Positions 1 to 18,750 of a DNA stretch of 20,410 nt are shown here, piece after piece. This DNA comes from a virus. Under the pieces are notes generated by a model. That model was not told where the DNA came from and did no database searches. It saw nothing but the letters and a program-made list of their open reading frames with translations. Numbering within the stretch: the stretch's first letter is position 1; each line of letters starts with the position of its first letter. Position numbers and translations under genes: made by a program. Location: positions 1-20,410 of the IMG/VR virus record IMGVR_UViG_3300042465_000140; one strand, given 5' to 3'.

Positions 1-90
1 TTGAACGTAGCGACCAAGGGGCAGATCAGCGCCACTTGCAGCGGCAACGCCTCCATGTCGGTTGTTGGGCTGTTTAGCGATTACGTCTAA
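1..90 (+). CDS. C-terminal end of an unidentified upstream protein
   Basis: Frame 1 is open from the window edge to a TAA at 88-90 and gives the last 29 residues of a protein, ending GLFSDYV. The stop overlaps the portal start as TAATG, which indicates translational coupling and one transcript. The fragment is rich in small and hydroxylated residues, alternating with hydrophobic ones, so it looks like beta-structured protein. It does not look like the usual C-terminus of a large terminase, which would commonly sit before a portal gene. The fragment is too short to assign, and its start lies outside the window. Confidence 0.6.
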   Translation: MNVATKGQISATCSGNASMSVVGLFSDYV

Positions 91-2111
91 TGGAAGGCAT
101 ACTGCAACCGGAACTGGAAAAGTACCTAAAGGTTATCGGGCAGTACGATAACGAGTTCGCCAAATGGCAGGCGCGAACCAAGAAGATCGTTAAGCGTTAC
201 CGCGACGATAGCCGAGGGCAGGGTGGCAACGAAGCCGCCCGCTTTAACATTCTCTGGAGCAACATCCAGACGTTAAAGCCCGCTGTGTACGCCAAGTTAC
301 CGAAGGCCGACATCAGCCGCCGCTTTGGCGATAACGATCCCGTAGGCCGCGTGGCAGGGCTGCTGATTGAACGCGCCATTGACTTTGAGATTGAGCATTA
401 CCCCGACTTTCGCTCAACCATGTCCTACGCCGTGGAAGATCGTTTCCTCGGCGGCCGCGGTACGGCATGGGTGCGCTACGAGCCGCACGTTGCCCCGATT
501 GGCATTGAGGACGATGGCTTATCCATCACCTCCAACATTGAGCAGGGTGAGGGTGCGCCGCCTGACCTAGAGCGCATTGAATACGAGTGCGCCCCAACCG
601 ATTACGTCCATTGGAAGGATTTTGGACACTCACAGGCCCGCACATGGGAAGAAGTGTCGCAAGTATGGCGCTGGGTCTATATGACCAAGGAAGCCCTCGC
701 AGAACGCTTTGGCGACGAAATGGCGCGGAAGATTCCGTTAGACCAAGGCCCAGAGCCGCTGAACGCCTACAACGAAGCCAAGCGCACCTACAACCGTGCA
801 AAGATTTGTGAACTTTGGGACAAGGAAACGCAGAAGGTCTATTGGTTCTGCAAGGGGATGCCGCAGATCATTGATGTGCGCGACGACCCGCTCGGCCTTG
901 AGGGATTCTTCCCTTGCCCGAAGCCGCTCTTTGCGACGACGACGAGTGACACCCTCGTCCCCGTCCCCGATTTCATCCTGTACCAAGATCAGGCGATGGA
1001 GTTGGACATCCTGTCCGACCGCATTGACGGGCTAGTGAAGGCGCTGCGTGTGCGCGGCGTGTACGACGCCAGCCAACCGGCGCTGCAACGGCTGATGACG
1101 GAGGGCGACAACAATGCGCTTATTCCAGTTGATAAGTGGATGGCTTTCAGCGAGAAAGGTGGCCTTAAAGGAAGCATTGATTTGCTACCTCTGGATACCC
1201 TCGCAAACGCACTCCTCAACTGCTACCGAGCCAGAGAAGACATCAAGTCCCAAATCTACGAAATCACGGGCATCTCGGACATCATCCGCGGCACCTCGTT
1301 CGCCTCGGAAACCGCGACAGCGCAGCAAATCAAAGGCCAGTACGCGGGATTGAGATTGCGCTCCATGCAGGAGGACGTTGCCCTCTTTGCATCGGAATTG
1401 ATTCGTCTCAAGGCGCAGGTGATGTGCAAGCACTACCAGCCCGAGACAATCCTTGCTTACGCCGCTGCGAGCCAGATGACGCCTGCCGATCAGCAACTGA
1501 TCCCGCAGGCCATTGAACTGCTGCGCGACAAGCCGCTGCGTAACTTCCGCGTGGACATTGCCGCCGACAGTCTTGTGATGTTGGACGAGAACCAGATGAA
1601 GCAGGATCGTATGCAGTTCCTGCAAGCGTTTGGTGGCTTCCTCGCGCAAGCCCTGCCGGTGGGTCAGGCCAGCCCGCAGATGGTGCCGATGATGATGGAG
1701 TTGCTGCGCTTTGGTATGCAGGCATTTAAGGCCGCACGACCGATTGAAGGGCAGATTGACTCCACGTTGCAGCAGTTGCAGCAAGCGGCGATGCAGCAAG
1801 GCCCAGACGGCGAGCAACAAGGCAAGCAAGCCGAGTTGCAGCAGAAGGGTCAGATGGAGCAGGGCCGTATGCAGATGGAGGCCGCGTTACAGCAGGCCAA
1901 GTTGCAACAGCAGATGCAGATGGAGCAACTCAAGAACCAGACCAAGATGGCGATGGAGCAGCAAAAGCAGCAGTTTGAGGCGCAGTTGGAGGCCATGAAG
2001 CTGCAAAGCCAGCAGGAAGCCGCCAAGTACAAGGCCGATATGGACGCCCAAACGCGCTTGATCATCGCGCAAATGAACAAAACGCTACCCCCGACTACGT
2101 TTAATCAATGA
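90..2111 (+). CDS. Portal protein (podovirus/P22-like type)
   Basis: This 673-residue protein is most likely the portal, the dodecameric ring at one capsid vertex through which DNA is packaged and ejected and on which the adaptor sits. The call rests on family resemblance of the N-terminal 400 residues (a helical start with FAKWQ, then the NILWSNIQTLKPAVY and FLGGRGTAWVRYEP stretches), on its size close to P22-class portals, and on its position just before scaffold and capsid genes. Residues about 555-660 are extremely rich in Gln, Met and Lys and should form a long coiled coil, the place where P22-type portals have a C-terminal helical barrel. The ATG at 90 overlaps the previous stop (TAATG). 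The gene ends in ATGA shared with the next gene. Confidence 0.88.
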   Translation: MEGILQPELEKYLKVIGQYDNEFAKWQARTKKIVKRYRDDSRGQGGNEAARFNILWSNIQTLKPAVYAKLPKADISRRFGDNDPVGRVAGLLIERAIDFEIEHYPDFRSTMSYAVEDRFLGGRGTAWVRYEPHVAPIGIEDDGLSITSNIEQGEGAPPDLERIEYECAPTDYVHWKDFGHSQARTWEEVSQVWRWVYMTKEALAERFGDEMARKIPLDQGPEPLNAYNEAKRTYNRAKICELWDKETQKVYWFCKGMPQIIDVRDDPLGLEGFFPCPKPLFATTTSDTLVPVPDFILYQDQAMELDILSDRIDGLVKALRVRGVYDASQPALQRLMTEGDNNALIPVDKWMAFSEKGGLKGSIDLLPLDTLANALLNCYRAREDIKSQIYEITGISDIIRGTSFASETATAQQIKGQYAGLRLRSMQEDVALFASELIRLKAQVMCKHYQPETILAYAAASQMTPADQQLIPQAIELLRDKPLRNFRVDIAADSLVMLDENQMKQDRMQFLQAFGGFLAQALPVGQASPQMVPMMMELLRFGMQAFKAARPIEGQIDSTLQQLQQAAMQQGPDGEQQGKQAELQQKGQMEQGRMQMEAALQQAKLQQQMQMEQLKNQTKMAMEQQKQQFEAQLEAMKLQSQQEAAKYKADMDAQTRLIIAQMNKTLPPTTFNQ

Positions 2112-3489: not shown

Positions 3490-4515
3490 ATGGCATTTGC
3501 CAACTCTAGTATCAGCGACATCATCGCTACGACCATTCAGAGCCGTAGCGGCGAACTCGCTGACAACGTGACGAACAACAACGCGTTGCTTCGTCGCTTG
3601 AAGGAGCGCGGGAACGTCAAGACGTTCTCGGGCGGTAACGTGATTTTGCAAGAAATCATGTACAACGATCCGACCACCAACAACACGAATTCCTACTCGG
3701 GATACGAGGTGTTGAACGTCGGCCAGAACAGCCCGATTTCGTCGGCGCAGTTCAGCATCACGCAGTACGCCAGCGCGGTGACCATCTCGGGTCTGGAGAT
3801 GATCCAGAACTCGGGTAAGGAAGCGATCATTGACCTCCTTGACGGCCGCATGGCTGTCGCCGAGGCTCAACTCGCCAACCGCATCTCGGGCGACCTGTAT
3901 GGTGACGGCACCGGCAACGCGGGTAAGAACCTCACGGGTCTTGCTGCTGCTGTGCCGGATGACCCGACTGTCGGCACCTACGGCGGCATCAACCGCGCCG
4001 TGTGGACGTTCTGGCAGAGCAAGAAGTTCTCGGCTGCCGCTGATGGCGGTGGTGCGGGCGCTGTCTCGTCCACGACGATCCAAGGCTACATGGACGCTCT
4101 CGCTGTCCAGTTGGTGCGTGGCACCGACAAGCCTGACCTGATCGTGGCCGACAACAACTACTATCGTTTCTACCTGCAATCGCTCCAAGCGATCCAGCGT
4201 ATTACCGAGAGTGGTTCGGGCCTCGCTGGCGCGGGCTTCGCTTCGCTCAAGTACTACGGTGCTGGTATGGCCTCCGACGTTGTGTTGGACGGTGGTATCG
4301 GTTCCTCGTCGTACAACAGCGGTGCTGGCAACGCGAACCATATGTGGTTCCTCAACACCAAGTACCTGCACTTCCGCCCGCACAAAGATCGTAACTTTGT
4401 GCCGATCGGCGGCGAGCGGCAGGCCGTCAACCAAGACGCCATTGTGAAACTGATTGGCTGGGCCGGTAACCTCACCTGCTCGGGCGGCCAGTTCCAAGGC
4501 GTGTTGATCGCTTAA
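3490..4515 (+). CDS. Major capsid protein
   Basis: This 341-residue protein is the probable major capsid (coat) subunit. It follows portal and scaffold, has a strong Shine-Dalgarno sequence, and reads like phage major capsid proteins: a short helical N-terminus (SISDIIATTIQSRSGELADNV), then NALLRRLKERG and the SGGNVILQEI strand. After these come a central helix (DLLDGRMAVAEAQLANRISG) with the adjoining GDGTGNAGKNLTGL loop, and later LIVADNNYYRFYLQSLQAIQRI. The C-terminal part ends with a conserved aromatic segment around HMWFLNTKYLHFRPHKDR. No cleavable N-terminal delta domain is evident, consistent with a separate scaffold gene. An HK97-type fold is expected from known tailed-phage capsids but is not proven by reading. 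Confidence 0.85.
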   Translation: MAFANSSISDIIATTIQSRSGELADNVTNNNALLRRLKERGNVKTFSGGNVILQEIMYNDPTTNNTNSYSGYEVLNVGQNSPISSAQFSITQYASAVTISGLEMIQNSGKEAIIDLLDGRMAVAEAQLANRISGDLYGDGTGNAGKNLTGLAAAVPDDPTVGTYGGINRAVWTFWQSKKFSAAADGGGAGAVSSTTIQGYMDALAVQLVRGTDKPDLIVADNNYYRFYLQSLQAIQRITESGSGLAGAGFASLKYYGAGMASDVVLDGGIGSSSYNSGAGNANHMWFLNTKYLHFRPHKDRNFVPIGGERQAVNQDAIVKLIGWAGNLTCSGGQFQGVLIA

Positions 4516-4528: not shown

Positions 4529-5005
4529 GTGTCTATTTCTGTTAGCAATATGATCGGTGTTTCTCTTGAATACACCGATACCTCGCCCTCGTTCGCTGTT
4601 GGCACCGTTGTCAACTTGAGCGATGGCGGTCAAGCCATTTATGTGCAGGCCGCTTCAACCTGCGCTGAATGGTCGGCTGTAACTGTCAACGTCAACAACA
4701 CGGTGGCCCCGTTGACCACGACCAACTCTGCCAATTCAAAGGCGGTTGGTTTTGCTCAAGTGTCCATTGCCTCGGCCTATTACGGCTGGGTGCAGTTGGG
4801 CGGCAAGCCGCGTGTCAGCGTGTTGGTCGGCTGTCAGCCGAACGTCCCGCTGTTCACCACCGCAACCGCAGGGTCGCTTGACGACGCTACGGTGACGGGT
4901 GGCTTGGTGGCGGGCCTTGTGGCCACAACCTCGGCGGCTTCGGCCTCTGCGGTCACTTGCATCGCGGGCTACCCGCACATCGCCACGGGCGTTGTCGGGT
5001 TCTAA
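4529..5005 (+). CDS. Putative capsid decoration protein
   Basis: This 158-residue protein is low in charge, rich in Ala, Thr, Val and Ser, and predicted to be almost entirely beta-structured. It lies immediately downstream of the major capsid gene behind a very strong ribosome-binding site, so it is probably made in high copy. Recognisable pieces are the FAVGTVVNLSDGGQAIYVQA segment (22-41), IASAYYGWVQLGG (80-92), and LFTTATAGSLDD (108-119). This arrangement is familiar in small head proteins encoded next to capsid genes in many phages, some related to DUF2190-type decoration proteins. The exact family is uncertain. A role stabilising or decorating the capsid surface is inferred from position and composition. 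Confidence 0.6.
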   Translation: MSISVSNMIGVSLEYTDTSPSFAVGTVVNLSDGGQAIYVQAASTCAEWSAVTVNVNNTVAPLTTTNSANSKAVGFAQVSIASAYYGWVQLGGKPRVSVLVGCQPNVPLFTTATAGSLDDATVTGGLVAGLVATTSAASASAVTCIAGYPHIATGVVGF

Positions 5006-5007
5006 CG

Positions 5008-5784
5008 ATGCAGCCTCTGGAGATCACGGTACAAGCGGCGGGTACAGCGGAGGAGCTTTGCTCCAACATTCGCTCGGCGCTTGGCCGTGGTCTGCCAGAA
5101 CTGACGCCCGCTCCTATCAAGCACGATGGTCACATCGTATTGGTGGCGAGCGGGTGGTCTATGCCCGATTTTGTAGAGGAAATCAGAGCGCACCGCAAAG
5201 CCGGTCGGCCCATCGTGGCGATCAAAGCAGCGCATGACTTCCTGTGCGAAAACGGCATCCAGCCGGATATGTGGGTCAACCTTGACCCGCGTGACCGCAC
5301 TAGCGGCATCCAAAAGGCGAACGATCGTACCGTGTACCTCGTTGCCTCGCGTTGCCCGCCCGTGACGTTTGACTACCTACAAGGAAAAAACGTATGGCTA
5401 TGGCACTCATGGGCAGAAGGCCCCGAGATGCAGGCGATTGGCCCCGGCAAGTTGGCCGTGGGTGGCGGGACGACATCGGGACTTCGTGCCATCAACATTG
5501 GTTATCTGCTCGGGTTCCGCAACTTCGTGCTGTACGGGTACGACAGCTGCAACCGGGCAGATGGCTTGAAGCGTTTTACCGGCGAATACACCGGCCCATC
5601 CATTGACGTTCATGTGGGTGGCCCCGCCGGCAAGAAGTTCAACTGCAACATGGCGATGGCCCAACAGGCCAACGAATTCCAGAAGCTCTTTGAGGTGATG
5701 GGCGATATCAACGTGGATGCGCGTGGCCCCGGCTTGATTGCCGAGATCATGCGAGTGCGCCACGAACAGGCAAAGGCAGCCTGA
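5008..5784 (+). CDS. DUF115 / MptE-like protein, possible virion-modifying transferase
   Basis: This 258-residue soluble protein resembles the DUF115 (MptE-like) superfamily, which includes archaeal 6-hydroxymethylpterin pyrophosphokinase and Maf-type flagellin glycosyltransferases. Visible family features are a beta-strand plus glycine turn at VLVASGWSM (44-52, where family members usually have G-x-G-P-S) and a second nucleotide-fold unit at IVAIKAAHDFLCENGIQPD (69-87) leading into DPRD (93-96). The signature GGGTTSGLRAINIGYLLGF (152-170) follows, then LYGYDSC (175-181). The start is taken at the ATG at 5008, just after the previous stop, rather than an upstream in-frame TTG at 4957 that would overlap it. 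The gene lies between a decoration-protein gene and a fibre-like gene and ends in TGATG coupling, so it is co-expressed with the virion. The substrate is unknown. Glycosylation of a head or fibre protein is a hypothesis. Confidence 0.65.
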   Translation: MQPLEITVQAAGTAEELCSNIRSALGRGLPELTPAPIKHDGHIVLVASGWSMPDFVEEIRAHRKAGRPIVAIKAAHDFLCENGIQPDMWVNLDPRDRTSGIQKANDRTVYLVASRCPPVTFDYLQGKNVWLWHSWAEGPEMQAIGPGKLAVGGGTTSGLRAINIGYLLGFRNFVLYGYDSCNRADGLKRFTGEYTGPSIDVHVGGPAGKKFNCNMAMAQQANEFQKLFEVMGDINVDARGPGLIAEIMRVRHEQAKAA

Positions 5785-6611
5785 TGGCTATTCCCTCTCG
5801 CGTACTCGGCAGCGGCATTAGCCAACTGTCTACCGTTAGCATTTGCGGCGACGGTATAGCGTCGGTATCAGCAGCGGGGACGTCAGCAGGTAATGCGACG
5901 CAAATCACTTACGTCTACACGAACGTCACAACAACTGCCTCGGGCGCTGGCGTTAAGCTGCCAAAGGCCGAGATGGGCGAGACGATTATTGTTAAAAACA
6001 GCGGCGTCAACCCGCTGACGGTATACCCATATAGCGCGACCGACACAATTAACAACGCAGGCTTTGGCACGATCAATGCTGATTGTTCCGCAATGTTTTT
6101 TGCCGTCAGCAATACGCTATGGGAAGAACTGCAAGGATTTGGCCGCTCGGTACCGATTCTGCATTACGGTGCGTTTAGCGACACGACGTTACAAACGGCG
6201 GCATCTATTAACACCGCTTACGGCATGGTTTTTAACACCACCGATAGCAGCAACGGCGTATCTATCGGATCGCCGTCGTCCCGGCTTGTTGTGGATAACC
6301 AAGGCGTCTACAACGTGCAGTTTTCGGCACAGTTAGACAAAACCTCGGGCGGCACAGGAAATATCTACATTTGGCTGCGTAAAAACGGAACCAATGTCGC
6401 CAACACCGCCACGACGGTTGCAATACAGGGTTCAGCGGCGCGTACCGTTGCTGCATGGAACTTCATCATCCAGCTTGATCCTACTAATTACGTTGAATTG
6501 ATGTGGGCGACGGATGACACAAGCGTTAGAATTCTTGCGGCCAGCGCCACAAGCGTATGGCCTGCGATCCCCTCGGTCATTTGTACCATCACACAGGTCA
6601 ACAACCTGTAA
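5784..6611 (+). CDS. Beta-rich virion protein, possible head fibre
   Basis: This encodes a 275-residue protein with hardly any charged residues and many Thr, Ser, Ala, Asn and Val, typical of beta-structured phage surface proteins. It appears to have two parts. Residues about 1-115 contain YVYTNVTTTASGAGVKLPKA, GETIIVKNSGVNPLTVYP and AMFFAVSNTLWEEL, a pattern common to phage fibre or decoration domains. Residues about 125-275 look like a jelly-roll of C1q/TNF-like type, with VYNVQFSAQLDKTSGG, IYIWLRKNGTNVANT and WNFIIQLDPTNYVELMW. It is coupled to the DUF115-like gene by TGATG. Being encoded in the head module rather than with the tail fibre, it may be a capsid fibre and could be a substrate of the upstream enzyme. 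That link is inference. Confidence 0.6.
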   Translation: MAIPSRVLGSGISQLSTVSICGDGIASVSAAGTSAGNATQITYVYTNVTTTASGAGVKLPKAEMGETIIVKNSGVNPLTVYPYSATDTINNAGFGTINADCSAMFFAVSNTLWEELQGFGRSVPILHYGAFSDTTLQTAASINTAYGMVFNTTDSSNGVSIGSPSSRLVVDNQGVYNVQFSAQLDKTSGGTGNIYIWLRKNGTNVANTATTVAIQGSAARTVAAWNFIIQLDPTNYVELMWATDDTSVRILAASATSVWPAIPSVICTITQVNNL

Positions 6612-6631: not shown

Positions 6632-7177
6632 ATGCCATTAGATAGCGACATCAGCAACGCCGACGCCCAACTGCACGTTGAGTTTTACGAGCGTGAGGAC
6701 GGCCCCAACAAGGGTAACGTCTATTGCCGTATTCAGTCCCCCGGCGACAAGACTAACGTGATTGACCAACCCTTACGCGAGGAGCATAAAGCGCGGTTTT
6801 CTCGCCAATGGCTGTACTTTCAGATGCAGCAGAGCGAGGGCGCTGCGGCGCAGATCGGCACCCCGTTGTCGCAATGGCAAAAAGATTGCCCAGATGATGT
6901 GAACAAAGACCAGATCGCTGAACTGTCCATTATGAAGTTCTTGACGGTGGAGCAACTTGCCCTTGCCTCTGACGCTCAAATGCAGCGCGTCGGCATGGGT
7001 GGCATCGGACTGCGCGAGAAAGCGCGTCTGTACCTCAACCGTAAGAACAAGATTGAAAGCAACGCCGAGTTGGAAGATACCAAGCGGCAGTTGGCTGAAC
7101 TGCAAGCACAAATGGCGGCCTTGATGGAGGATAAGCCCCGTCGTGGTCGCCCGCCGAAAGAACTAACGGAGGCATAG
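6632..7177 (+). CDS. Helical phage protein with AT-hook-like C-terminus, function unknown
   Basis: This encodes a 181-residue protein recognisable as a type often found between capsid and adaptor genes in podoviruses, but with no assigned function. The N-terminal 65 residues look like a small alpha/beta domain containing HVEFYEREDGPNKGNVYCRI. Residues about 98-137 (IMKFLTVEQLALASDAQMQ, then GMGGIGLREKARLYL) look like a helix-hairpin-helix-like element with a GMGGIG turn. Residues 140-166 form a short coiled coil (ELEDTKRQLAELQAQMAAL). The tail, KPRRGRPPK, contains the RGRP core of an AT-hook, a minor-groove DNA-binding motif. The HhH-like turn and basic tail together suggest nucleic-acid contact, perhaps at the portal or with packaged DNA. 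This is inference. Confidence 0.6.
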   Translation: MPLDSDISNADAQLHVEFYEREDGPNKGNVYCRIQSPGDKTNVIDQPLREEHKARFSRQWLYFQMQQSEGAAAQIGTPLSQWQKDCPDDVNKDQIAELSIMKFLTVEQLALASDAQMQRVGMGGIGLREKARLYLNRKNKIESNAELEDTKRQLAELQAQMAALMEDKPRRGRPPKELTEA

Positions 7178-7178
7178 C

Positions 7179-8090
7179 ATGAGCAGCACGATGATTCAGC
7201 TCATAACCGAGTGTACGCAAGAACTCGGTATCCCGACCCCCTCCACGGTCGCGGGTAACAACAGTCAGGACGTAGTGCAATTACTCGCCCTGATGAACGC
7301 TTGTGGTTATGAGTTGCTTCGTCGTGCTGATTGGCGCGAGTTGACCCGCCAGCACACTTTTTACACCGAAGCCTCTACGGCAACGGCGTCGTGGGTGGAC
7401 GGCGTGGCTGTGATCACGGGGCTTGCCTCTACGGCGGGGCTGTCCACGCAGTATCAGGTGCAGGGCGTCGGTATCCCGAACGCCACCTACATCACAGGCG
7501 TTGGCCCGACGAGCGTGACGCTCAACTACGCCCCAACCGAGACGGTGGTAAACGGTCAGGTCATCTTCCAAAAGGTGAAGTACGACCTCCCCGCTGATTA
7601 CGTCAGCACCGTCAACCGCACCCATTGGGACAAGAGCAAGCGTTGGGAAATGCTCGGCCCCGAATCGGCGCAGCAATGGGAATGGCTGCTGTCGGGTTAC
7701 ATCAGCACCGGCCCGCGTATCCGCTGGCGTTTGCTCGGCAAATACTTCCAGATTTGGCCGGGAACCAACGCAGGCGAGTTGCTTGGCTTTGAGTACCGCA
7801 GCGCGGCGTGGGCAGAAGCCGCAGACGGTACGCCGAAGAACAGTTTTACCGCTGACAACGATACCTGCATCTACCCCGACCGCCTTATGGTGTTGGGTAC
7901 CAAACTCAAGTACTTTGAGGCCAAGGGCTTTGACACGACCGCCCTCTACCGTGACTACCTCATGGAGTTTGAGACGGCGGTGGCGCAAGACACGGCGGGC
8001 GCTAACCTCTCGTTTGCCCCGCGACCGGGTACGGTGTTGATCGGCTACGACAACATCCCCGACAGCGGCTATGGCACGGGTAGCACCTAA
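7179..8090 (+). CDS. Head-to-tail adaptor, P22 gp4-like, with inserted beta domain
   Basis: This 303-residue protein is the likely adaptor that binds beneath the portal and closes it after packaging. The N-terminal helices (MIQLITECTQELGIPTPSTV, then VVQLLALMNACGYELLRRADW) and the downstream YDLPADYVSTVNRTHWDKSK, RWEMLGPESAQQWEWL and FQIWPG segments match the familiar gp4-type layout. Residues about 61-132 look like an extra beta domain with VQGVGIPNATYITGVGPTSV, the GxGIP repeat found in many phage surface proteins. It is placed just before the conserved YDLPADY segment. The start at 7179 is supported by ACGGAGG at 7166-7172. The stop overlaps the hub gene as TAATG. Confidence 0.75.
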   Translation: MSSTMIQLITECTQELGIPTPSTVAGNNSQDVVQLLALMNACGYELLRRADWRELTRQHTFYTEASTATASWVDGVAVITGLASTAGLSTQYQVQGVGIPNATYITGVGPTSVTLNYAPTETVVNGQVIFQKVKYDLPADYVSTVNRTHWDKSKRWEMLGPESAQQWEWLLSGYISTGPRIRWRLLGKYFQIWPGTNAGELLGFEYRSAAWAEAADGTPKNSFTADNDTCIYPDRLMVLGTKLKYFEAKGFDTTALYRDYLMEFETAVAQDTAGANLSFAPRPGTVLIGYDNIPDSGYGTGST

Positions 8091-9667
8091 TGGCGTCTCC
8101 CGTTCGCAGGCGGTTAATCCAGCGCACTAGCAACAACGTCGCGTCGTTGCCCGCCCCCGTGGGCGGCTGGAACGCCCGTGATGCGCTAGCCAACATGGCA
8201 CCGACTGATGCGGTGACGCTGGACAACCTATTCCCCGGCGTCTCTAGCGTTAGTTTGCGCGGCGGTTGGGCTCCGCACGTTACGGGCATCAGCGGGCAAG
8301 TAGAAACGCTGATGACGTTTAACGGCGGCAACACAGACGAGATGTTTGCCATCGCACAAGGTTCGCTGTACGACGTTACAACGGCAGGGGCGGTGGGTGC
8401 GGCATCAGTATCAAGCCTGACTAACTCGCGTTGGGAATACACCAACATTACGACCGTAGGCGGTAGTTATCTGTATGCCGCAAACGGCGTGGATAAGCCG
8501 TTGCTGTACAACGGCAGCACTTGGACGGCCATTGACGGCTCGTCTACGCCTGCCATTACGGGCGTCACGACGACAACGCTGCATTGCCCGACGTTGTTCA
8601 AGAACCGTATGTGGTTCATCCAAGCCGATACGCTCAAGGCGTGGTATCTGCCGACCGCATCGGTAGGCGGTGCTGCCAACGTACTTGACCTGTCATCGGT
8701 TGCCCGTAACGGCGGCAAGCTCATTGCAATGGCAACGTGGACGATTGACGCAGGCTACGGCGTGGATGACAACCTTGTGTTTGTCACCGATCAAGGCGAA
8801 ATCATCGTTTATCGCGGCACCGACCCCTCCAGCGCCTCTACATGGGCGCTGATCGGCGTTTGGCAGGTTGGTTCGCCCATCTCGCGCCGCTGTGTGACCA
8901 AGTACGGCGGTGATTTGCTGATTTTGACGCTAGATGGCCTGATCCCGATGGCCTCGGCGCTGCAATCGTCGCGGCTTGACCCGCAAGTGGCGCTGTCGGA
9001 CAAAATTCAAGGCGCATTTGCTGCCGTCACGCGCCAATACAAGAGCAATTTTGGCTGGGGGCTGCTCTACAACCCGCTTAACAATGCGTTGATTGTTAAC
9101 ATTCCAGTAGGCACAAACTCGCAACAACAGTTTGTGATGAACAACATCACTAAAGCGTGGTGTCGGTTCACCGGCTGGTACGCCAATTCGTGGACTTTGC
9201 TCAACGACACGCCCTATTTCGGCGGTGACGGCGTTGTGGCAAGAGCATGGACGACGGGAACGGGGTCAGAAAGCTACGCTGACAACGGTTCTGCAATTGC
9301 GACGCGCGCTTTGCAAGCGTTTAACTACTTTGAGACGCGCGGCGTCATCAAGTATTTCACCCGTGGCCGCCCGACCATTTATAGCAACGGTCAACCGGCC
9401 ATCAGCATCGGCGTCAACGTGGACTTTCAGACCGCCGACATCGTAGGCCCGCTTTCCTTTTCGCCCACCGCTTATGGTTTGTGGGATGTAGGACTGTGGG
9501 GAACGGCTCTATGGGGGTCAGATACGGTCGTCACGAACAACTTTGTGGGACTTCAAGGCATCGGATACTGCGCTGCCGTCAATTTCAACAGCAGCAGCAA
9601 GAATCTGACGCTGGAGTGGGCATCAACTGACATCGTTTATCAACTCGGATGGGCTGGCGCATCGTAA
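8090..9667 (+). CDS. Tail hub / stabilisation protein, P22 gp10-like
   Basis: This 525-residue, predominantly beta protein follows the adaptor gene, as gp10 follows gp4 in P22. Its start, with PAPVGGWNARDALANM (21-36) and then DAVTLDNLFPGVSSVSLRGG (40-59), is typical of phage hub or stabilisation proteins that seal the adaptor and hold the tail fibres. Successive blade-like units, such as the ANGVDKPLLYNGSTW and FVTDQGEIIVYRGTDPSS segments, suggest a propeller-like body. Near the C-terminus there is a short tryptophan-rich repeat (YGLWDVGLWGTALWGSD). The start is coupled to the adaptor stop by TAATG. The last 19 nt overlap the next gene in another frame. Confidence 0.75.
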   Translation: MASPVRRRLIQRTSNNVASLPAPVGGWNARDALANMAPTDAVTLDNLFPGVSSVSLRGGWAPHVTGISGQVETLMTFNGGNTDEMFAIAQGSLYDVTTAGAVGAASVSSLTNSRWEYTNITTVGGSYLYAANGVDKPLLYNGSTWTAIDGSSTPAITGVTTTTLHCPTLFKNRMWFIQADTLKAWYLPTASVGGAANVLDLSSVARNGGKLIAMATWTIDAGYGVDDNLVFVTDQGEIIVYRGTDPSSASTWALIGVWQVGSPISRRCVTKYGGDLLILTLDGLIPMASALQSSRLDPQVALSDKIQGAFAAVTRQYKSNFGWGLLYNPLNNALIVNIPVGTNSQQQFVMNNITKAWCRFTGWYANSWTLLNDTPYFGGDGVVARAWTTGTGSESYADNGSAIATRALQAFNYFETRGVIKYFTRGRPTIYSNGQPAISIGVNVDFQTADIVGPLSFSPTAYGLWDVGLWGTALWGSDTVVTNNFVGLQGIGYCAAVNFNSSSKNLTLEWASTDIVYQLGWAGAS

Positions 9668-10089
9668 GCGGCCCCCATGTGGGGCATTGGGTCACCGCAC
9701 AGACGGACGGCGGCTATCACGCCGAACGATCCAATGCTCTCGGGCTTGAGAAAGACGGAAAGTTGGTCGCAGGGACAGTTTTTGAGATGTGGAACGGCAG
9801 ATCGGTCGTCTGCCACATCGCATGGGAGCGTGTTACGCCGACGTATATGGCAGCCGTTTACGATTATGCCTATAACGTCTGCAATGTTGATAAGATAATA
9901 GGGCCGATTTCCAGCAACCATACCCGGGCGCTGAAACTGGTCACGAAAATGGGGTTTTCCGAGGAAGCGCGCATCAAGGATGGCGCACCCGACGGAGACA
10001 TTGTTTTTATGACGCAGACACCTGACAAGTGTCGTTTTTTGGAGCCGAGGTATGGGCAAAAGATCACCAGCACCGCCGCCAGCGCCTGA
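9649..10089 (+). CDS. GNAT-like acetyltransferase-fold protein
   Basis: This encodes a 146-residue protein whose C-terminal half resembles the last part of the GNAT N-acetyltransferase fold. Residues 79-108 read NVDKIIGPISSNHTRALKLV followed by TKMGFSEEAR, the strand, N-x-x-A helix and K-x-G-F segment seen in RimI/RimJ-like enzymes. The hydrophobic strand VVCHIAWERV (53-62) would be the central beta strand. The expected Q/R-x-x-G-x-G/A acetyl-CoA phosphate loop after it is not visible (VTPTYMAAVYDYAY stands in its place), so catalysis is uncertain. It overlaps the hub gene by 19 nt and the next gene by 38 nt, indicating it is an integral operon member. Its start has no clear Shine-Dalgarno and probably relies on coupling. 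Its target is unknown. Confidence 0.68.
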   Translation: MGWRIVSGPHVGHWVTAQTDGGYHAERSNALGLEKDGKLVAGTVFEMWNGRSVVCHIAWERVTPTYMAAVYDYAYNVCNVDKIIGPISSNHTRALKLVTKMGFSEEARIKDGAPDGDIVFMTQTPDKCRFLEPRYGQKITSTAASA

Positions 10090-18420: not shown

Positions 18421-18750
18421 ATGGCTACCGTGATTACATGGAACATCAGCCAACTGGACTGCGTACCGCAAGCCCCCGAAGGCGCTGACTACGTTGTTAC
18501 CGCACATTGGTCGTGCAACGGCGTGAACGGCGACTACAGCGGCAGCGTCTATGCCACCTGTTCGTTTGCCGTGGTGCAGGGCGAGGCTTTCACGCCTTAC
18601 GCTGACCTCACGCAAGATCAGGTGCTGGGTTGGTGTTGGGCTAACGGCGTGGACAAAGAGTCTGCCGAGGCTGCGGTAGAGCAGCAGATTCAAAACCAGA
18701 TTAACCCGCCGATTGTTTCGCCGCCGTTGCCGTGGTCGGCACAACCGTAA
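18421..18750 (+). CDS. Small protein downstream of fibre, DUF7936-like
   Basis: This encodes a 109-residue acidic protein. It begins VITWNISQLDC, has a central beta segment (ADYVVTAHWSCNGVNGDYSG then SVYATCSFAV), a FTPYADLTQDQVLGWCWANG helix (57-76), and ends with a Gln-rich helix and NPPIVSPPLPW. From memory this pattern matches small phage proteins of the DUF7936 type, which lie next to fibre genes. The assignment is not verified. GGAG at 18408-18411 supports the ATG immediately after the fibre stop. A fibre-assembly or fibre-associated role is inferred only from position. The conserved C-terminal Pro-rich WSAQP end has no recognised purpose. Confidence 0.6.
   Translation: MATVITWNISQLDCVPQAPEGADYVVTAHWSCNGVNGDYSGSVYATCSFAVVQGEAFTPYADLTQDQVLGWCWANGVDKESAEAAVEQQIQNQINPPIVSPPLPWSAQP

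Follow-up and report, generated by a model that had tools for sequence, protein, structure and literature searches.

Background

To our knowledge, glycosylation of the virion has been proven in only few phage isolates. Mycobacteriophages are described to glycosylate their own capsids with enzymes of their own (PMC12363180, PMC11256854, citing Freeman 2023). A phage glycosyltransferase that acts on the phage's own capsid is also the role that we propose here; for Che8, Corndog and Myrna this role is proven by experiment, whereas for the locus described here it is a proposal. From what is known of the mycobacteriophage enzymes, we judge them to be unrelated to DUF115. Closer to the protein itself are the Maf glycosyltransferases, whose central domain (pfam01973) is Cst-II-like and O-glycosylates Ser/Thr, and which accept CMP-Neu5Ac and CMP-Kdo (PMC11339370). 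The gene analysed here lies on a 20,410-base IMG/VR virus record, which is called the window in the following.

The gene and its position in the head operon

The sequence-only reading had described an enzyme-like gene between a decoration-protein gene and a fibre-like gene, inside a phage head operon. The open reading frame and its flanks are located there, and the surrounding genes for portal, major head and tail have PHROG matches (12082, 9953 and 6013), thus the label of a head operon is right. The gene extends from ATG to TGA, and the motifs VASGWSM, DPRD and GGGTTSGLRAINIGYLLGF are present in its product exactly as they had been quoted. The relevant features of the window are the following:

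90..2111, + strand: portal gene (phrog_12082)
3490..4515, + strand: major capsid protein gene (phrog_9953, Mx8 type)
4529..5005, + strand: decoration-type gene, 158 aa, candidate acceptor (phrog_29386 virion structural protein, 1.8e-4; Mx8 type; 22.8% Ser+Thr)
5008..5784, + strand: DUF115/PF01973 gene, 258 aa, putative Maf/GT42-like transferase domain (PF01973 match at residues 20-183)
5145..5162, + strand: codons 46-51, V-A-S-G-W-S, where the nucleotide loop is canonically V-G-G-G-P-S (changed in 28/28 window-clade representatives)
5461..5484, + strand: codons 152-159, GGGTTSGL loop, kept across clades (elsewhere GGGTTVGL; TSG recurs in the Cst-I alignment)
5784..6611, + strand: fibre-like gene, 275 aa, candidate acceptor (22.5% Ser+Thr; its start overlaps the DUF115 stop, TGATG)
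6632..7177, + strand: Mx8 p50-type gene, 181 aa, right edge of the slot
7179..8090, + strand: neck/tail adaptor type gene (phrog_6013)

The complete order is portal, small gene, scaffold-like gene, major capsid, decoration-type, DUF115, fibre-like, p50-type, adaptor and tail genes. The decoration gene stops 2 nt before the ATG of the DUF115 gene. Neither the DUF115 gene nor the fibre gene is preceded by a clear Shine-Dalgarno sequence, unlike the capsid and decoration genes; together with the overlap of stop and start, this suggests that the decoration, DUF115 and fibre genes are probably translated together. Rfam and tRNA scans of the window gave no matches.

Further genes of the window deserve mention. 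A GNAT-type acyltransferase gene (9649-10089; phrog_4470, 1.9e-25), to which we assign no role, is found at the same place of the tail module in the relatives of the window, in Mx8, BUCT555 and others, and is a second conserved enzyme among the structural genes. The gene at 8090-9667 bears the PHROG label 'amidase' (phrog_5107, 2.4e-125); its position and MW202489 ('phage stabilization protein') point to a structural neck/tail gene instead, and the label may be wrong. At 18421-18750, a 109-aa gene has a sub-threshold match to the NCBIfam laterosporulin bacteriocin family (6e-4, 20.1 of 40 bits), which is probably due to chance.

Family and predicted fold

The protein matches PF01973 (MptE-like/DUF115) with E=6.1e-15 and 55.9 bits, above the curated cut-off of 34.6, which bears out the family that had been proposed from sequence motifs. 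Structure prediction, suggested earlier as a check of the fold, agrees with it: two AlphaFold models of moderate confidence (pLDDT 68 and 72, pTM 0.70 and 0.75; weak at residues 1-36 and 134-155) both indicate a DUF115-type Rossmann-like fold. In Foldseek searches against the PDB, the Maf glycosyltransferase 5mu5 is ranked first and the HPPK of Methanocaldococcus jannaschii (8sd5/8sbu) second, for the first model (6.7e-7 and 3.5e-6) as well as for the second (3e-6 and 1.2e-5), followed by SteA and, far below, by thiamine pyrophosphokinases and sialyltransferases. The fold alone separates transferases from pyrophosphokinases poorly. A search of the PDB with a profile of five diverse phage members resulted in 5mu5 at 2.2e-11 (spanning residues 35-191), Cst-I at 0.19, HPPK at 0.26 and Cst-II at 1.0; this diverse profile was needed, as phmmer returned noise and a weak match to 5mu5. 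By profile and by Foldseek rank, the closest solved relative is thus Maf.

With the central domain of Maf from Magnetospirillum magneticum (5mu5), the phage protein shares the Pfam family, the fold, the profile match and an LGFR-x-LFG-D motif. It differs in its architecture, since Maf is a 666-aa chain with additional N- and C-terminal domains whereas the phage protein is a single domain in which only PF01973 is found, and in its loop, which reads ASGWS instead of GSGPS. Judged from these features, the phage protein may work like Maf, but we do not class it as a Maf. The Campylobacter GT42 sialyltransferases Cst-I and Cst-II (2p2v, 1ro8) are remote: the TSG-x-LG-GxD region aligns, but the family match is not significant, neither in the profile search nor for phrog_4603 (0.17). 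The MptE/HPPK of M. jannaschii shares the Pfam family and the fold; however, its DLDGD stretch is missing in the phage protein, which has VNLDPRD (xLDARP in relatives), and the phage gene lies in a context of virion assembly and glycan enzymes.

A comparison with predicted viral structures gave best matches to proteins from uncultured phages, 540-714 aa long and labelled 'MptE-like' or 'methyltransferase domain'. The 'MptE-like' proteins in BFVD/UniProt, whose names are automatic only (e.g. A0A6J5L5C1, 540 aa; A0A6J7XC21, 685 aa), have structural matches of 5e-21 to 2e-17 and 32-38% identity. These proteins are longer, as expected for fused forms, and are in line with the fusions seen in relatives.

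Close relatives

Close relatives are encoded on at least 305 IMG/VR stretches; as for the other loci of this analysis, these are not independent of each other, and some contigs were retrieved repeatedly. The relatives that we collected, here called the window clade, are 65-98% identical, their dN/dS against the window ranges from 0.06 to 0.14, indicating purifying selection, and 114 positions are invariant among 35 representatives. Furthermore, PF01973 was matched by 12/12 diverse homologues tested (E<=0.01). Considering the match above the cut-off, the family shared by all tested homologues, the number of stretches and the purifying selection, the gene is not a product of chance.

In every collected close locus with flanks (~128 loci), the order is major capsid protein (MCP), decoration, DUF115, fibre, p50 and adaptor. 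A one-base overlap between the DUF115 stop and the fibre start is seen in 176/185 loci, and a four-base overlap in 4 more. The fibre-like protein has a constant N-terminus of ~120 aa and, in 73 of the 79 distinct complete relatives, a C-terminal C1q-like domain. As the six others keep DUF115 without C1q, we rejected the C1q domain as an obligatory partner.

Searches of INPHARED for cultured phages (tblastn of the window protein and of two distant homologues, L406 and L433) yielded nothing relevant within the sensitivity of tblastn, and no relative was found on plasmids. The pattern W-[VIM]-N-L-D-P-R-D matches only inside the window clade, where it should be considered that scans with short patterns miss remote relatives. 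The L433 domain as a seed in IMG/VR gave zero finds, and the DUF115 alignment found no relative in GTDB contigs, for which the capsid protein was the productive query. Related contigs are binned in metagenome-assembled genomes (MAGs) of Acidithiobacillales, Lysobacterales, Rhodopila and others, although such binning of phage contigs is unreliable for the host.

Distant relatives and fusions to glycan enzymes

Distant DUF115 homologues (25-46% identical) occupy the same slot. When GTDB contigs were scanned with the capsid protein, homologues of 29-32% identity were found there in L406, L409 and L410, of which one carries a methyltransferase fusion. With L406 and L409 as seeds, 61 IMG/VR loci were detected, and the slot is unchanged wherever flanks exist. 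Among the frames of 65 distant loci, 43 combine DUF115 with a SAM methyltransferase, three combine a glycosyltransferase (GT) with DUF115, and four consist of GT, DUF115 and FkbM; for the other 15, no partner was detected. The fused GT is a phrog_1962 glycosyltransferase (1.7e-25 and 2e-37) and the fused FkbM is PF05050 (3e-12 to 3e-14). For instance, L433, which also came from the capsid-based scan of GTDB contigs, encodes a single 710-aa frame composed of the glycosyltransferase (1.7e-25), DUF115 (1.6e-14) and the FkbM methyltransferase (3e-12). Partners can also be neighbours: in L492, the nearest sister (46% identical), DUF115, a GT1-like gene, a methyltransferase (Methyltransf_11, 1.2e-10) and a GT8-like gene lie in a row between the decoration and p50 genes, where both GT Pfam scores are under their curated cut-offs, and in L485 a hexapeptide acyltransferase (3e-28) adjoins DUF115. 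In the window clade, no fused or adjacent GT or methyltransferase is found.

Glycosyltransferases, FkbM-type and other SAM methyltransferases and hexapeptide acyltransferases are typical glycan-building enzymes, and fusion into one chain is a classic sign of a shared pathway. Together with the Maf-like profile, these fusions make glycosyl transfer the best reading. The sequence-only reading had named known relatives that transfer sugars or pyrophosphate groups; glycosylation gains support from the GT and methyltransferase fusions in the same slot, whereas the profile comparison speaks against pyrophosphate.

In 698 genomes from two bacterial orders, a search for DUF115 found only proteins of Maf length, L433 and one further prophage. 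This prophage, in a Burkholderiales genome and with a distant Mx8-type head, carries DUF115 between terminase and portal, a different slot that is still part of the head operon. It is the one exception to the expectation that homologues always neighbour decoration or fibre genes, which holds for every other IMG/VR and GTDB locus with flanks.

DUF115 alleles are exchanged: in L406, L410 and L443, MCP identities of 84-87% go with DUF115 identities of only 25-31% (87% and 31% in L406). The distances still correlate overall (Spearman 0.42 and 0.54, above all 500 permutations). A stable slot with replaced content would fit a surface-determining locus.

The slot in Mx8-type phages

Capsid and portal proteins related to those of the window (about 50% and 34-39% identical) are encoded by Myxococcus phage Mx8, Stenotrophomonas phage BUCT555 and Bradyrhizobium phage ppBjS10J-1. 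Mx8 lacks DUF115, and its MCP gene is followed by the genes for a virion structural protein, p50 and the tail; BUCT555 has lysis genes at this spot. PF01973 was found anywhere in the record in none of eight cultured or GenBank relatives and in none of 34 IMG/VR relatives with BUCT555-like capsids. We thus conclude that DUF115 and the fibre-like gene are additions to an Mx8-type head module. The lysis genes of BUCT555 also show that the slot is an insertion site in relatives, so that position alone is no proof of a head function. In ~150 capsid-related loci without DUF115 (not all independent), no GT, methyltransferase or other DUF115 partner domain was found, and we rejected the idea that the slot hosts glycan genes in DUF115-negative relatives as well.

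Several observations were made in these and other related records. Five DUF115-negative loci (L151, L175, L185, L192, L197) have 4-7.4 kb between MCP and adaptor, presumably with other cargo. The sequenced isolate Pandoraea iniqua strain LMG 31009 (L411) contains a related head module without DUF115 (MCP 70% identical) and is a possible culturable control with an empty slot. A group I intron (L465 3366-3588; Rfam RF00028, 51.8 bits) lies in a gap of the major capsid gene, which is also interrupted in L446, L452, L454, L455 and L478, there with no Rfam match. Far from the head operon, record G035 (L405 14032-14691) encodes a 219-aa protein (phrog_28018, unknown function) that looks by eye like a glycosyltransferase. 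In record G042 (L402 9452-10930), a 492-aa protein just upstream of the terminase region combines a stretch resembling ADP-ribosyltransferases (ART-PolyVal, 29.8 of 31.2 bits) with a GNAT stretch.

The altered nucleotide loop

Nearly all distant phage members have GGGPS or close variants, whereas ASGWS replaces the canonical GxGPS loop in the window clade (28/28 representatives), a departure that the sequence-only reading had not noted. In all or nearly all of these 28, N73 is changed to K and HAYxQ to KRFTG. L492 is intermediate, with a GSGPS loop, K73 and KR-Y at the second site. Positions kept across both clades include S51, D93, R95, S114, C116, H133, G152-G154, T156, G158, D179, M217, Q220 and F224. 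Because of the changed loop, the donor of the window clade may differ from that of its relatives. We read the loop change as a probable alteration of donor specificity; a loss of catalysis with a retained structural role is less likely.

Proposed function and alternatives

We consider it fairly probable that the gene encodes a Maf/GT42-like glycosyltransferase, translated together with the decoration and fibre genes, which adds a host-made sugar to one or both of their proteins. A stand-alone Maf/GT42-like domain (PF01973) would be produced together with its candidate acceptors, the host would make and activate the sugar, and the sugar would be attached to the decoration protein, the fibre protein or both, late in infection. 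Glycosyl transfer, an O-linkage to Ser/Thr and a CMP-activated ulosonic acid as donor are what the protein families suggest. That the acceptor is a head or fibre protein is suggested by position and co-translation, and is less certain than glycosyl transfer. Both flanking proteins are rich in Ser/Thr, and the putative transferase is encoded by the phage and linked to virion genes, as would be expected of a virion glycosylation system. Among the scanned genes of two ~35-kb relatives, none was recognisable as part of sugar-nucleotide biosynthesis, thus the donor likely comes from the host. CMP-Kdo is made by nearly all Gram-negative bacteria and would be at hand in a Gram-negative host.

The changes in the window clade could also mean that the domain is no longer catalytic and has become a structural protein, a chaperone or an assembly protein, which is translated along with the fibre gene. 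The three fixed or nearly fixed replacements, the missing GT or methyltransferase partner, the very strict conservation and the overlap with the fibre gene would all suit such a protein. Nevertheless, we regard this as unlikely, since loss should relax the other positions that are kept across clades (including D93, R95, S114, C116, H133, GGGxTxG, D179 and Q220), and since L492, which combines the canonical loop with K73 and KR-Y, looks like a stepwise change of specificity and not like decay. Also unlikely is an enzyme that alters a host surface glycan (LPS or capsule) during infection, so as to exclude other phages or to aid release, and merely sits in an insertion site of the late operon. 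Phage glycosyltransferases that modify host surface glycans are well known, the slot takes other cargo such as lysis genes in relatives, and allele exchange is not in step with the capsid gene; however, hundreds of loci have the gene immediately after the decoration gene and co-translated with a virion gene, and late expression would leave little time to change the cell surface. In addition, enzymes of the Maf branch are known to O-glycosylate proteins in the cytoplasm (PMC11339370).

We consider the remaining alternatives to be very improbable. An MptE-like pyrophosphokinase, or another nucleotide-dependent small-molecule enzyme, is brought to mind by the name of the Pfam family, which refers to MptE, and by the HPPK structures as second-best fold match. 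Yet the profile favours Maf over HPPK by about ten orders of magnitude (2.2e-11 compared to 0.26), on which grounds we rejected an MptE or folate role; furthermore, the DLDGD of HPPK, probably a metal site, is replaced by NLDPRD, the fusion partners are of glycan type, and the scanned genes included no recognisable folate gene. Glycosylation of phage DNA or of another intracellular target might be considered as phage DNA glucosyltransferases exist, but those enzymes belong to different families, no gene of a hypermodified-base pathway was recognised among the genes scanned, and the DUF115 gene sits among head genes.

Returning to the glycosylation of virion proteins, we tentatively extend this reading to the clade level, as a possibility about which we have some doubt: the slot between decoration and neck genes in Mx8-like podoviruses may be a virion glycosylation locus. 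Exchangeable DUF115-based enzymes, alone, fused with GT or methyltransferase or clustered with an acyltransferase, would equip capsid decoration proteins with glycans that are clade-specific and partly methylated, and allele swaps would change the surface type of the particle, similar to bacterial O-antigen loci.

Our analysis suggests that these phages sugar-coat their own particles. If this is true, an abundant lineage of uncultured phages would have virion glycosylation as a fixed trait, and a Maf-type domain would serve in a role that has not been described for such domains. There would be one-chain enzymes of GT, DUF115 and methyltransferase whose acceptor is probably encoded next door, so that co-expression of two or three neighbouring genes would directly test acceptor, donor and effect. 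These phages would then also be a source of small soluble tools for protein O-glycosylation.
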